Of a stretch of DNA of 64,000 nt, positions 38,332 through 46,482 are shown one piece after another. The stretch is taken from contig NW_006763147.1 of assembly GCF_000264905.1 (NCBI RefSeq), forward strand, positions 470,272 to 534,271. Reading direction: 5' to 3'. This DNA comes from Stereum hirsutum FP-91666 SS1 (Eukaryota; Basidiomycota; Agaricomycetes; Russulales; Stereaceae). Position 1 is the stretch's first letter; each line of letters starts with the position of its first letter. The translations under genes were made by a program, and so were the position numbers. Below the pieces are notes generated by a model. The model did no database searches and had not been told where the DNA came from. It worked only from the letters and a program-made list of their open reading frames with translations.

Positions 38332-38354
38332 CAGCGGAGTTCGAAGTTCGACTC
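38332..38354 (+). repeat. Outer direct repeat, left copy
   Basis: CAGCGGAGTTCGAAGTTC then GACTC. The same 23 bp with one change (T for G) occurs in the same orientation at 45449-45471, outside the other end of the RecQ/DUF6589 element. Confidence 0.7.
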
Positions 38355-38381: not shown

Positions 38382-38710
38382 CAGCTGCTTTCACAACTCT
38401 AGACAGGGTACGAAATCTTCTCGGTGTGCCAAACATCAATTTTGACGGACCAAACACACAGCCTCTGCATTCATTCTCTGCCCGAATGGGGCATCCGCAT
38501 AGTCTCGAAACCAGCCGTTAGAGGGGTGCTCTCTCCAGGCGCTGAGTGAGAGGACGGGAGGGAACCGGGAACAAGGCTGAGTGGCTGAAAATATGCGGAG
38601 TGAAAAAAACACGTGGCAAATTGAAAGTCAGAAAGTTGGGAATCGCACCCCTCTAACGTCTGGTGCATTTCGTATAGAGACGGCCCCATCGGTGACAGAG
38701 TGACACCGTG
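38382..38710 (+). repeat. Left terminal inverted repeat
   Basis: About 330 bp. Strong matches to the right repeat at both its outer (27 bp) and inner (AACGTCTGGTGCATTTCG...) ends, with gapped similarity between. It forms the promoter region of the RecQ gene. Confidence 0.75.
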
Positions 38711-38868
38711 GGAACGGCACATGTCTGGTGTCGCGACGCACATGATCCGGCGCGTCTTTCATCCGTGACACGAAGTCTTCCTTGCGAAAACCCCACTACT
38801 CGTCATATTGCTGTCCATCTCACGCTACAGTCTATTACCTTGTACACTACTACATCTAAATTCTACCC

Positions 38869-41800
38869 ATGGTCCTCACTCCCAGCAGCCAGCCCAATTC
38901 TCCCAAGAAAACCCGGCCTGCCCCAACGAAGAATGCTCAGCCTCCCAAGGGTGCAAGAACCCCTGCCAAATTCTCCTCTTCCTCCAAAACAAAGACCTCA
39001 GTTCCACCGAAACAAAAAGGCAGCACCTCTACGACCCGCTCATCAAAACCTTCCTCGAAACCTGCTCCGAATCCCCAGGAACCAATTGATACATCGTCTA
39101 CACAGACTAAGAAGGTGTCGGACCGTGCAGAGCAGGAGAAGCGGGTGCGTGCAGAACTTCACGAGCATCAGCGTCTTCGGTCGTATGCTTTGCTCGATGC
39201 TTCTCGAGAACGGGCTAAGGAGGCGTGGGGCTACGATTCAGTACAGGCTCGTCGTATTATGAAGGAGGAATGTCTTAGTCGCTCGAAAGGCGCTATCACT
39301 CCTCACGAGTGGCAGCTGGACATTGCGGAATGTTTGGTGTTGGGTATTGACTGCGAACTGATCGCGCCAACGGGTTCGGGGAAGACGATTGCGTTCATGC
39401 TGCCGATGTTCTACTGGCAGAGACCTCGCACAGGGAATGAAAGTGGTGAGCATGCGACAGGGAAGACAAACAAACAAGGAAAACCTACGGTTCTGATCAT
39501 CGTCTCACCTCTGAATACCCTCGAAGCCGATCAGGTGCGTATCCAGAATATTCAAGTTGGCTCTTGAGTTCTGACGGAATGTAATCGAAGGCGCGTCGGT
39601 TCACGGAGGTTGGTCTTTCGGCTGTGGGTCTCAATGGGGAAACATATTCAGACAAGACATTGAAGGTGCGTTTGTTACGCTCTCGTATGTTGTACCGTCA
39701 GCGCTGATGCCCTCTCAGGACATAGAGGACGGCCGTATCAGTGTAATCGTCACCTCGCCAAACATGTGCTTGGAGCACGAAAAGTTTCGTGGTCTCCTCA
39801 ATTCAGCCAGTTTCGCTATGCGCATTGGAGCCTTCGTCCTCGACGAAGCTCACTGCATTACACAGTGGGGTGACAAATTCCGCGAGGTCTACTCCAAACT
39901 TGGCACACTTCGCGCTTTCGCATCCCATACCCCATTTCTTGCTACCTCTGCGACACTCACACCGGATGATCTGACCACGATCCGCAAGTCTGTCCATTTC
40001 TCAAAGCCTGATACCTTCCATCTTAACCTCGGGAACGATCGTCCCAACATCACTTGGCACGTTGTGCATATGAATGCTGGCAAGTCGGACCTCGAGTCGC
40101 TCGAGTTCCTTCTCCCGAAGGACTGTAATGCCACACGTCTCGGGAAGGTCATCGTCTTTTTTGACGAAATCCTTCTCTCGATGAAGGCATGGCGTTGGTT
40201 TCGAGAGCGACTTCCAGAACACTTACGGGGACGCATAGCCTACTACAACTCACGTCGCGGCGAAAGCTCCAAGCTCGACGCGGCCACTCAGTTCTGTAAT
40301 GACAAAATTGACATCATGTTTTCAAGTGAAGCTTTAGGCATGGTGAGTGATATGCATCTTTCACTATCAGCCCCAGTACTAACTTCAATATGGAAGGGAT
40401 GTGACTTACCGAACATCGAGTCCGTCGTGCAATTTATGGTCCCAGCCTCCTTGTCAATTTGGCTTCAGCGTGCAGGCCGTGCCGGTCGGACGAGAGGGTC
40501 ACAGGCGCATGCCTACCTACTTGTGCAGCCAACGGTGTTCCAAGAGAAAAATAAAACCAAACGAGCAGAGGGCGATGAGATAGAGTACATGAAGGTGGTC
40601 GAGAAGGACTTACGCCGGTGGATCCAGACATGCGAATGTCGCAGGGATGTGGCGGACGAGCACTTCAACAACCCAGTGAATCGTGAAGGTCAGTTTTGTT
40701 TCATGCGTGCGAAAGAACGGGCCACTCACATTGATGGGTGTAAACAGAGCCTACCGGTGAATGCTGTGATACATGTGGTCAGAAGAAACCACGACAGCTA
40801 GACAAAGAACAAGGCTCGCCTGGACAGGATAATCCAACCCACTCCACCATGGACGACCCTCAATCACCCCCCGACCCAGTGCCTGTAGAACCGACCAACG
40901 ATAAAGAGAAAGGCGCCGTTAAACGTCGCGATCAGCATCTTGAGGAGGCGAGGAAGCTTCTCGTAGGGTGGCGCGCGTCAACCTACCGAGCGAGGTATCC
41001 GTACGCGATCTGGGGCGTGGAGGGGCTGATGCCAGACGTGGTGGTGACGGCACTGGCAACGTACCGTCGATGGCGGAGTCTGGAGGATCTCCAGTATGCT
41101 GCGGCGGATTGGATGTGGAAGGAAAGGCATGCGGACGAGGTCTTGAAGCTCCTGAAGGAACTCGACGAGCGTGTAGACGCGGAGAAAGAATTCGCAAAGC
41201 GAGCGAAGGCGGACGCGCGGAAGGCTGAGACGAAGCGGAAGAGAGAGGCGAAGAAAAGGGCGAGCGAGCACGTCGAGGACTCGTTGTCATCGTCTGATGA
41301 AGAGCCGTTGTTGGCGCTCGTCGAACGCGCCCCTAAGCGCCCTCGTGCTTCGCGTTCTCACGAGACGACGCGACCTTCAACGCCTTCGCCTCCAGCTTCT
41401 CCTCTGCCTCTCACCTCATCTCTGCCATCTACCTCCACGGCAGGCTCGAAACCTCCGAATGAGCCGGTACGTTATTTTCCGCAGCTCACGTCTATCATTA
41501 CTCTGATCGTTTCGTGCCTCATTCACAGCTTCATTCGTCGCGCGAAGCGCCACCCGTGCTGTCGACACGTACAGCTCTACCCACCACTGGCAGTGTGAGG
41601 ACCGTGACAAACGTAGGAACATGCGCAGGCCATTCGATTTCAACGTCTGCTACACGCGCCTCATCGTCGGATTGTCATTCAGCAGGTTCTGGACGTGCGC
41701 AAGCGGGCAGAGTGTCTGAGTCTTCTACAGGCGCGTCCCTTCCCGTGAATCTGTCCAAACATATCTCTAATATAACTTATTACAGCGGCTACAAATATGG

Positions 41801-42039
41801 CTTTGCAGTCGTCTGATCACGAAGCTCAGCAGCTGAACCAGCACGGCCCGCAGCATCTTTATGCACCGCCGCAGTACGGCTACTATACATCCGATCCTCG
41901 ATATCCAGGCGCCCAGTTCTTTGTTCCAATGCCATATCCTCCTTACGGTTATCAACCATATCCCATTTACCAGACATATCCCACCCACGCTGCTCACAAC
42001 CACCCGCAACATCACCCACAGCCTCCTTCAGGATCATGA
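38869..42039 (+). CDS. RecQ-type DNA helicase with long C-terminal extension, 931 aa
   Basis: Exons 38869..39534, 39591..39665, 39719..40342, 40397..40688, 40748..41466, 41529..41694 and 41786..42039. A basic Ser/Pro/Lys-rich N-terminus precedes the helicase core: Walker A APTGSGKT (about 166-173), DEAH (289-292), TSATL, GMGCDLPNIE and motif VI QRAGRAGR (about 479-486). A RecQ-like zinc region has Cys residues in CECRRDV and GECCDTCGQ. The long tail carries a coiled, charged segment and ends in a Tyr/Pro/His-rich stretch (PQYGYYTSDPRYPG, YPPYGYQPYP). RecQ enzymes unwind DNA 3' to 5'. The last intron is the least certain. Core splicing is secure because it restores GMGCDLP. Confidence 0.85.
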
Positions 42040-42112
42040 CCATCCAATACCATTCCAACAAATTCCCTCATAGTGCTACCGTACAGTACTCACATTACTT
42101 TTGCTGTGTCTA

Positions 42113-44867
42113 TCACTCATTCGCTGTATCTGATTCCTCCGCCATTCTCTGCCGCTTAGATTTCTCGCTCACGTCCTCTGCTTTTCGCTTTTTGTCATCC
42201 TCTTTCTGCTTTCTTTCTTCGTCCAACCACCGCTCCGATGTTTCCCTTGGGAATGATCGGTTGTCCCACCACTCCTTAATCGTACGGCTCTGCGCTAAGC
42301 TCGCCATTCCTTCCGTCACAAAGTCCTTCGCACGATTCCCCGCATTTTTGAACGTGCGCCCCCCCTTCGGCCTGAACCACCCTTCCGCTACGGCAATGTC
42401 CCTCCATGTTGCCACATCTTTCTCCTTCGCTGGTGTTGTATGTTTGTCGCCACGCGTACGTACCAGTTTGAACTGTGACTTAACATGATCCTTCACCAGA
42501 TCAACCACGGGGATTGTCTTCGCCTTTTTGCTGTGGTTCTCCATTGTCGCCCCTGGTCCCAGACTGCGGTAAGAATATTTTTCCTTCTTGATATTTTGCT
42601 CTTGAGCTTGATCTATCGGTTTATAGCCGTCGCGTTTTCCGTTGACGTTGACCAGCCAACAATGCTTCACGATGAAGTTTCTAGGTAAATGGTTAGTCCA
42701 TAAGTCATTGTTCTGTTGCTGATCTATCAACTCACTTTACGTCCGACTGCCACTCCCGCTCCAATCCTTGAATCAGCTCTAGGATCTCTTTTGTGTAGTT
42801 GCTATTAGATCCACCTTCAAATTGTAGTAGCATCCACGGAAGAAGATCCTGGATACGTCCGACATCACCTCTCTTGATCGAATCACGAAGATTGAAGTAT
42901 GGCAATAAGTCTGTAAGAAACATGATAGCCTGTGAGTTGATTTCGTCTTGATCCTCTGGGTCCATAGCACGCGTCCGAGCGAGTGTGTCGCGGCTTGCAC
43001 AGTTGTCATATATCTCCTCTGCCAGCGTTGCAAGCGCCTCCGGTGGCCATTCGGCCAGCTCGTCCAATTTCTCGACACCGGCGACCTCCATCCAACACGC
43101 TAAAATCATCGCCTCCCCAACGTGCCATAAAACCTCATCGAGATGATGCCAGAATGGGCCCTTGATTGACGTCGTAAGTAACCCTTTCCTCTTGAGCTTG
43201 TCGAACGCCCTTCTAAGACCAATTCCGCCCGACTCGCCTAAGTATTGCGCGTGTATCGAGTTTGCGACCGCGAACATGATATGGAGAAACCCGTTCGTAC
43301 CAATCAAGTAGTCCATCCTCTCATAGCTGTTGATGTCTTGCCCCTTATATAGTGCTAGGCCCCGTAGTCGGGAGGTTGTGAGTGCATCGCCACCCCATGG
43401 AAAGAACCTTCCTGTCGATGTCTTCTTCATCTCTTCCAGTGAGTCCATCTTCAATTGACGAAACCACTCATGTATAACCTTCTCCACACCCTCATAGCTG
43501 GCCTCATCAATGTCCGCTGTCGAGAACATGAACTGTTCGGGTATATGCTCGGGGCCACATGGAAGTTCATCAACGGGTGCTGGTCGGTCAAATAAGCTGT
43601 TGTTGCGGTCGGAATAATTCTCAAAAGCTGGTGAGTTGATCAAGAAGTCTGTAATCTGCCATATATCTTGAGCGCGCTGGCGGTGCTGGATGTCGGGGTT
43701 GCCTTCGAGGAGTTTTTGATAGTTGAAGCACTGCTTCGCGCCTTCCCGACGACCTTCCTGATATTTCCGGTTCAGATCTGGGTCGAGGGCTACGTGCTTC
43801 GGCAGAACCCATAGTGTACCACCCGTCGCGCTGATGAACATGTTCTGGTTGCTGATACGCTGGGAAAAGACTCTGCGGGGTATGTTCTCGTTGTCAAAGG
43901 TGCCGAATATGGCGCGCTCGCGACTGTACTTGACCATGGCGTTGGTCTCGGATGTGGCAATTTGCACGAGTGCGTCACAAGTCCATTTGTGACTCATGAC
44001 GAGGCCTAGTGCGTGAAGAGTGTCGAACGCGCGAGCTGACAAGCCGCAATGTTTGAGGTAGAGAGCCCAAAACATAGGGAGTCGGTTACGGTGATGTGAG
44101 CGTGTGTATGAAAGTATCGACATGACATTCATGATAACCTTTGAAGTAGGCGAGAGTCAGTGTTGCAGTCAAAAATGAGAATACACTGAGATGGAAGCCA
44201 CTCGTACATTCTCGGGTGTTTTGTGTGTGTTCCGTTCTGCTTGAGATTCACTCCACCCGGCCTTCAGCAATATAGTCCACAATGTTGAGGCTCTCTCCTT
44301 TAACTCCAAGCATATCTTCTTCATATCCAAACTGGTCAATTCCTTGCGGCTGAGAGCATCTTTGCCCGCTGTCATGAGGTCTGCTATAGCCCTGATGTCC
44401 TCCGCTACTAACTGTCCCACAATTTCCGTCGCTATATCCTCCACAACCCCGCGACCACGTTTTGCCTTACCCCCCGGTGGCCTTGCACACCGCAGCAAAG
44501 CCTCTCTAAACTCTGCACTGCCCAACAACCCTGTTCGCTCGTACCTCACCTTTGGGTCGGCCGTGCATTCCTCATCTCCATAGAGCACCAAGCCCACAAA
44601 CCAAGGAAGAGTAAGCCCATTTGACTGTAAGGCATTAAAAATAGCGAGAACAGCATCAAGAGGACGTTTGCCGGCCTTCGCAAGATTGGCCTTGTACGAT
44701 TCGGTGTGAGCATGTTGAATAGGACGGTGGTCAACAGGTTTTCGAGCTTGAGAGGTATCTTGGTCGGATTCGTCAATGTCGCCAACAGGCTCGTCGTCCG
44801 AATCCAGATCGGCTTCCCACTTGTCGTCAAAGAAATTTTCGAACAGGTCATCAGGTATGTTATCCAT
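42113..44867 (-). CDS. DUF6589-domain protein, 876 aa
   Basis: Three exons, complement(42113..42680, 42736..44138, 44208..44867). The middle and C-terminal parts resemble DUF6589 proteins of basidiomycetes as I remember them. Examples are an internal FMFSTADIDEASYEGVEK, GGDALTTSRLRGLALYKG, FLHIMFAVANSIH, RDSIKRGDVGRIQDLLPWML, and KHCWLVNVNGKRDGYKPIDQ followed by KEKYSYRSLGPGA. The N-terminus is acidic. The C-terminus is Lys/Arg-rich and could enter the nucleus or bind DNA. Function is unknown. No DDE triad was identified by eye. Its position inside inverted repeats with a RecQ helicase suggests a mobility-related role (inference). Confidence 0.78.
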
Positions 44868-44980
44868 CAGTCAAGTGTGTAAGTCAAGAGGTACAGGAAT
44901 AAACCGTCGAGTTTGAGATGAGACAAGACACGACGCGACGCGAGTGTCAAGACGCGTCGGTAACGAGGAGTCACAAGGTG

Positions 44981-45260
44981 ACGGTGTGACCGATTGTCAC
45001 CGATGGGCGCGTTACTATACGAAATGCACCAGACGTTCTCGGAGCAACTCTCCCCACACAACCGGCTTCTTGGCTCCGAGAACGGCTGGATCCGAGACTA
45101 GCATCCGCACACGACCAACGTAAGAGTGTGGCGTCGTGAGTGAGAAGAAAAGAAATTGAGATCCGCTCGCAGTGAAATCTAGCTTTGTTTGGTCCATCCT
45201 CGTTTCTGTTTGGTGCAGGCGAAAGATCTTGCCCCCTGTCTAGAGTTGTGAAAGCAGCTG
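44981..45260 (-). repeat. Right terminal inverted repeat
   Basis: Inverted counterpart of 38382-38710 (27/27 at the outer end, 23/23 at 45015-45037). Serves as upstream region of the DUF6589 gene. Confidence 0.75.
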
Positions 45261-45448: not shown

Positions 45449-45471
45449 CAGCGGAGTTCGAAGTTCTACTC
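45449..45471 (+). repeat. Outer direct repeat, right copy
   Basis: Direct copy of 38332-38354 with one mismatch, 188 bp outside the right inverted repeat (the left copy is 27 bp outside). Confidence 0.7.
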
Positions 45472-45651: not shown

Positions 45652-45723
45652 TACCGCTGATGGGGATCGAACCCACAACCCCCACCTTAGGAAGGTGATG
45701 CGCTACCATTGCGCCACAACGGC
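45652..45723 (-). tRNA. tRNA-Arg(CCU), 72 nt
   Basis: Cloverleaf folds by eye. Acceptor stem GCCGTTG with CAGCGGT (two G-U pairs), D-arm GCGC-AATGGTA-GCGC, anticodon stem TCACC/GGTGG around loop TTCCTAA with anticodon CCT. The T-arm holds GTTCGATCC (B box), and the discriminator base is A. No intron. Reads the AGG codon. Confidence 0.92.
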
Positions 45724-45733
45724 TTGACATTTA

Positions 45734-46126
45734 CAGTGTAGGCCCACTCCTTGATCCAACCCCGGTCCTTGATCCACTGCAAATCTGCCGCCTACAGCTC
45801 CCCCAGCTTGAAGAACACTCTTAAAAACTGTAGGTACGGGACACTTAAGGCTATATTGAGTACCTGAATGAGCATGCATTACTGTTATGAGGGGGAATTG
45901 TGCAGTGCGGGGTTGGATCAAGGAACCATATTTTGTGGCGCTCGGGTGCCACACCACATCTTGGTCTCCCAAAAATGCTCACTCACCTTGGGCACCGTGT
46001 ATATTTTATTATGAGGTCCTTCGTGGATGATACAAACCTCAGAGTTAACCGTTTGAATGAATACGGGAAGGGGAGCAAGAAAATGAATTGATTCAAAGTG
46101 GCGGATCAAGGAGTGGGCCTACACTG
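45734..46126 (-). mobile_element. 393 bp MITE, copy 2 (inverted relative to copy 1)
   Basis: Same length and same CAGTGTAGGCCC ends as 19172-19564, flanked by TA (45732-45733 and 46127-46128). Its reverse complement aligns along copy 1, with patches such as GGAGACCAAGATGTGGTG shared exactly. It begins 10 bp upstream of the tRNA 5' end. Confidence 0.85.
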
Positions 46127-46482
46127 TACTGAAGTCAACAATATATAATATGGACCCTTGGCAGACATGTCTCCTGAGCTTTCTCTACTTGGTCTCTACG
46201 CTCTCTTACTTCTGACCATCCTTCAGTCTGCAACGCCATCGACGGAACACAGACATACCTGCCTTGCGGGCTCTGAAGCACTCACTTCATGAACCATACG
46301 ATATTATTTCTGTCCTACGTTTAAGACTACTTAGCCTGTTGACGACCACATCGCGCTAGTCTCTCGAGACACCCGTAAGTAACCTTCCTTCCTCGGTCTT
46401 CACTGAATATTTCACGCAGACTAGATGTCTGACTCTGTGCTAAAATTTTAGAGATCGACGATAAACATCGTTCCTGCTTGTC
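46127..46482. other. Upstream region of membrane protein gene
   Basis: Probable promoter and 5' UTR of the following gene, with a TATAATATGG-like motif near 46143. No ORF of note. Confidence 0.4.

Follow-up and report, generated by a model that had tools for sequence, protein, structure and literature searches.

What moves a RecQ-like helicase gene and a DUF6589 gene that lie side by side between long inverted repeats in a mushroom genome, and where does the mobile unit end? We addressed this question in a 64,000-nucleotide stretch of the 46-Mb genome of Stereum hirsutum FP-91666 SS1 (contig NW_006763147.1, positions 470,272 to 534,271, on the contig that we call C17; hereafter the window). 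The initial annotation of this locus had proposed an undescribed, self-contained mobile unit, bounded by a perfect 27-bp inverted repeat within about 300 bp of inverted similarity, in which DUF6589 would be the recombinase or an accessory factor and RecQ would supply unwinding. Our combined findings indicate that positions 38500-45100 are very probably a cut-and-paste DNA transposon that looks autonomous. Its RecQ/DUF6589 family most likely belongs to AcademH (Table 1).

The ends of the element read TAGTCTCG...CCAGCCGTT and are flanked by a 9-bp duplication, GCATCCGCA. In a scan of the window for terminal inverted repeats (TIRs) combined with target site duplications (TSDs), the 38500/45100 pair scored 2 (lower is better), whereas the best scores in six shuffles of the same sequence were 8-9. 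The element sits precisely inserted, with its 9-bp duplication, inside one unrelated 270-bp miniature inverted-repeat transposable element (MITE). Similarity to intact copies of this MITE elsewhere in the genome (L010, L011 and L012) ends at window positions 38497-38499 and starts again at 45101. When 38382-38499 is joined to 45110-45260, the resulting 269 bp are identical to the three intact copies at 265/269, 268/269 and 267/269 positions, with one gap position each. Since the rejoined flanks are almost identical to these uninterrupted empty sites, insertion into a young MITE was precise. The proposal of a self-contained mobile unit is upheld.

The 27-bp repeat belongs to the host MITE as its TIR and does not contribute to the mobility of the RecQ/DUF6589 element. 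The outer inverted repeats (38382-38456 and 45186-45260) are 75 nt long and 76% complementary, and their first 27 nt, starting at 38382 and 45260, are perfect by eye, as had been annotated. The same repeat bounds 270-bp elements at the three other genome sites named above, where both halves are uninterrupted. This MITE family, with the TIR CAGCTGCTTTCACAACTCTAGACAGG and 2-bp duplications of TC or TA, is recently active and also includes more diverged or shortened copies (L013, L014). Because the repeats are found elsewhere as 270-bp elements, we rejected a local inversion duplication as their origin. The initial annotation had thus seen the repeat correctly and assigned it to the wrong element. 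The inverted similarity of about 300 bp likewise exists, but is made up of the TIRs of MITE and element together with a subterminal motif further in, with a further inverted match detected at 38655-38697 and 44995-45037. The suggested search for further copies divided in the same way: the gene pair recurs in the genome with related ends, whereas the 27-bp ends recur on MITEs without the gene pair.

Table 1. Features of the RecQ/DUF6589 element and its insertion site (window positions).
Feature	Position	Strand	Remarks
RecQ/DUF6589 DNA transposon	38500-45100	no strand	6601 bp; basis: TIR and TSD, 77% identical full-length relative, MITE rejoined by flanks
Left TIR, TAGTCTCGAAACCAGCCGTT	38500-38519	+	20 nt, 90% complementary to 45081-45100
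Right TIR, TAGTCTCGGATCCAGCCGTT (as read on - strand)	45081-45100	-	20 nt
Left 9-bp TSD, GCATCCGCA	38491-38499	+	site uninterrupted in L010
Right 9-bp TSD, GCATCCGCA	45101-45109	+	
RecQ-like superfamily 2 (SF2) helicase gene	38869-42039	+	940 aa; six introns, placed by eye
DUF6589 gene, likely DDE transposase (D302, D471, E715)	44867-42113	-	876 aa, two introns
Left subterminal inverted arm, 38645-38664 (pairs with 38510-38529), and motif AACGTCTGGTGCATTTCG	38645-38672	+	
Right subterminal inverted arm, 45029-45045, and motif AACGTCTGGTGCATTTCG	45020-45045	-	
Interrupted MITE, left part (with 27-bp repeat)	38382-38499	+	97-99% identical to L010, L011, L012, L013
Interrupted MITE, right part	45101-45260	+	98-99% identical to L010, L011, L012

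The element carries two separate genes on opposite strands, convergent and 73 bp apart as originally annotated, and both have intact reading frames under our intron models. The helicase contains the Walker A, DEAH, SATLT and QRAGRAGRT motifs, and one open frame of its gene matches human WRN (E=5.4e-16). The DUF6589 gene matches Pfam PF20231 in its main exon (E=1.8e-83) and in another exon (5.6e-13). Its ratio of nonsynonymous to synonymous substitutions, measured against a relative on contig C9, is 0.076.

The RecQ/DUF6589 pair is a transposon family. Genome searches gave at least 21 matches to PF20231 and at least 18 to the helicase open frame, which manual merging reduced to 13 and 14 loci, respectively. 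A helicase locus lies within 10 kb of DUF6589 at 11 of the 13 DUF6589 loci, and DUF6589 is near 11 of the 14 helicase loci (P about 7e-23 in a binomial model of random placement). Nine of these 11 pairs are convergent, C7b is divergent and the two genes of C31 share a strand. The C9 relative (C9:50511-57120) is full length, 77% identical to the window element and has the same TIRs, with flanks that agree at 0/9 positions and no target duplication. The more distant C15:848519-855919 (41% DUF6589 identity) has a TIR and a repeat of 8 bp, CTGGTGGC, which becomes 9 bp when one terminal T is counted as shared. At 25% DUF6589 identity, the 6.7-kb element at C6:1387592-1394291 (L086, L023, L055, L087) is flanked by an exact 9-bp duplication, AACCCGCCT, and scored -0.5 for TIR and TSD, compared with 5-6 in four shuffles; it is probably very young, because its TIRs are identical over 103 bp and its TSD is exact. 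The last, C7b (C7:224713-235850; L092, L054, L048, L093, L021, L041, L094; 22-29% DUF6589 identity), spans 11,138 bp with extra DNA compared with the other relatives. It has an exact 9-bp duplication, GTCCAAACC, and the ends TAGGCTCG and TAGACTCG, and scored 2.5, the runner-up pair within the same stretch serving as the comparison at 5.0. Ends of the TAG type were therefore found in 5 of the 11 pairs, an exact 9-bp duplication in three (window, C6 and C7b) and an 8-bp one in C15.

The first TIR and TSD scan, of 13 loci and the window, yielded a pair only in the window and C15. In a second scan, with six shuffles per locus, the window was the only locus clearly below its shuffles apart from C23, scanned with a 2.9-kb gap, and C9b, and for these two the control means little because shuffling moved the N's. 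A scan with more flank made C6 and C7b stand out, but not C7a, C36 or C31. We did not count C9b (C9:834487-845193; L029, L033, L096, L058, L097), a DUF6589/helicase pair within inverted repeats of about 97 bp, because its flanks are themselves inverted and palindromic around ATGTACAT. Decayed matching ends were seen by eye in C21 at about 445035 and 448958. Solo or partial ends related to this family occur at ten further loci (L007, L008, L018, L019, L020, L060 and L067-L070), for which no partner with a duplication was found.

Which of the two proteins moves the element? A predicted model of the DUF6589 homologue P0003 has an RNase H-like fold, with the Hermes (hAT) and P-element transposases as its closest matches at moderate scores, and carries a conserved D-D-E (D309, D478, E720). 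On these grounds DUF6589 is most likely a DDE transposase and RecQ an accessory enzyme, which agrees with the recombinase role first proposed and, through this homologue, answers the question raised then about the predicted fold. We ran three homology searches for animal, Academ or fused proteins, scoring in each about 8000 candidates that shared most words, and found at least 94, at least 63 and at least 59 proteins. All those listed carry PF20231 except P0127, for which no domain is listed, and P0084 has two further domains; none carries, beside DUF6589, any of the helicase accessions matched in the window. The named relatives among the matches listed are all fungal and, in the search with at least 94 proteins, come from mushroom-forming fungi. 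No relative was among 146 pattern matches in viral contigs. A literature search by name returned no paper under DUF6589, although the protein may figure in Kojima's work without being so named, and the only match to 'PF20231' was an unrelated optics paper. Within that search the link between DUF6589 and a transposase appears unpublished, and the likely function for DUF6589 is probably new here.

In such a mechanism, DUF6589, as a DDE transposase with an RNase H fold, would bind the TAGTCTC...CCAGNCG ends, cut at TAGTCTC and join the ends to target DNA by a strand transfer with a 9-bp stagger. The helicase might open or resolve DNA at the ends, at the strand-transfer gap or on the branched product. 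DUF6589 thereby gains a testable function, that of a DDE transposase, for a family with at least 94 relatives. RecQ-like genes in mushroom genomes, moreover, may be transposon-borne rather than host genes, as the pairing of 11/14 such loci with DUF6589 illustrates here.

The ends of these elements may also be maintained as foldbacks. In the window, C9 and C15, a terminal segment with CCAGNCGTT is repeated inversely, starting 64-174 nt from the end. The motif AACGTCTGGTGCATTTCG, allowing up to 2 mismatches, has 9 matches in the genome, 6 of which are foldback ends, whereas its reversed control has 2. The variable arms have different sequences at different ends and in different families, and in a pairing matrix the inner arm of the same end is the best partner for most of them. 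In a mononucleotide-shuffle test, 6 of 13 ends beat all 200 shuffles. A dinucleotide-shuffle test of 10 ends, to which C6 and both C7b ends were added and from which L008, L067-L070 and L019 were left out, had 7 ends reached by 0/1000 shuffles, with L060 reached by 2, the right end of C9 by 10 and C6 by 58. Several results weigh against foldbacks: the C9 right end just missed in the 200-shuffle test (9.5 vs 10) and pairs better with the inner arm of the window element (29) than with its own (19); the single or partial ends L008, L067, L068, L069, L070 and L019 did not beat 200 shuffles; at the C6 ends, 9 and 21 of 300 shuffles reached the observed value; and in the pairing matrix the lead of C6 and L060 over other ends is a single point. 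Since the window and C9 elements form one family and the two ends of C15 are alike, the strong cases amount to about five independent ones.

At the left end, the outermost 150 nt of the window and C9 elements are identical at 148/150 positions while silent coding sites have strongly diverged, which could be due to strong constraint or to a recent exchange of ends. That outer and inner arms mostly stay self-complementary though their sequences differ suggests, at the level of sequence, maintained foldbacks, an observation new here. The paired arms may reflect a structural need for hairpins or may simply be paired binding sites. We raise only as a doubtful possibility that the ends, each a terminal segment of about 20 nt with an arm some 50-175 nt inside, are kept as foldbacks for DDE cut-and-paste through structured single-stranded ends, in which unwinding of the ends by the helicase would allow hairpins to form, for DUF6589 to read or process. 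If foldback ends matter, they would help to explain why some transposons bring their own helicase.

Two repeats lie outside the interrupted MITE. One is a 23-nt direct repeat (96%) found on both sides at unequal distances (38332-38354 and 45449-45471). The other, a perfect 26-nt inverted repeat with copies 345 nt apart (45732-45757 and 46103-46128), adjoins a tRNA-Arg(CCT) gene (45652-45723) and is possibly another small element.

To which known group does the element belong? AcademH, a little-studied helicase lineage of the Academ superfamily (Kojima 2020), encodes a helicase and makes 9- or 10-bp TSDs according to the accessible text of PMC10045372. Because this combination is what we found, the RecQ/DUF6589 element is probably an AcademH member, as compared by description (helicase and TSD length only), and 'undescribed' was probably wrong. 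Our search by name found no paper tying DUF6589 to Academ, as would be expected if these DDE transposons with a RecQ helicase formed an unnamed superfamily of their own, sharing with AcademH only the helicase and the TSD length. We consider this unlikely, as two unusual features coincide with those of AcademH, which the accessible part of PMC10799480 reports as low-copy in Basidiomycota, Ascomycota and Mucoromycota, citing a reference whose title names animals. A KolobokH element would account for the RecQ helicase and the fungal host, since KolobokH elements, which encode a RecQ helicase beside a Kolobok transposase, have been found in fungi only, as far as the available text of PMC9587614 goes. 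However, Kolobok duplications are the 4-bp TTAA and the KolobokH helicase lies downstream of the transposase domain (same text), whereas the duplications of the window, C6 and C7b are 9 bp and lack TTAA, and the genes are separate and, in the window, convergent. We therefore rejected this identity as very improbable on TSD and gene order.

Even less probable is that the whole of 38382-45260 moves as one unit. The 27-bp repeat is perfect and symmetric about the gene pair, and the interrupted MITE is flanked by TC at both ends, but the 27-bp repeat also delimits 270-bp elements that lack these genes, an intact MITE results when 38499 is joined to 45110, and the C9, C15 and C6 relatives start at the inner TAGTCTC (C7b at the similar TAGGCTC/TAGACTC). 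Finally, although RecQ helicases are normal host genes and 3/14 helicase and 2/13 DUF6589 loci lack the partner, chance neighbourhood of two host genes with a TIR and TSD of other origin is negligibly probable given that pairing is far above chance, that diverged copies have related ends and that MITE copies present the exact empty site.

Compared with known systems, the fold predicted in the DUF6589 model comes closest, at moderate scores, to those of the hAT (Hermes) and P-element transposases, although by sequence DUF6589 has no match among solved structures. In the model, as in Hermes, a large helical insertion appears to interrupt the RNase H-like core ahead of the final catalytic residue. 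Both hAT and P elements make 8-bp duplications and are not known to carry a helicase gene. The RecQ/DUF6589 gene pair is not described in the accessible parts of PMC8290104, PMC12210899, PMC9970103 and PMC12730594, and neither the DUF6589 link nor foldback ends appear in those of the AcademH descriptions (PMC10045372, PMC10799480). With AcademH, our element shares a RecQ-like SF2 helicase, a 9-bp TSD that is exact in the window, C6 and C7b (8 bp in C15, none in C9) and, as predicted here from the P0003 homologue, a DDD/E transposase with an RNase H fold.
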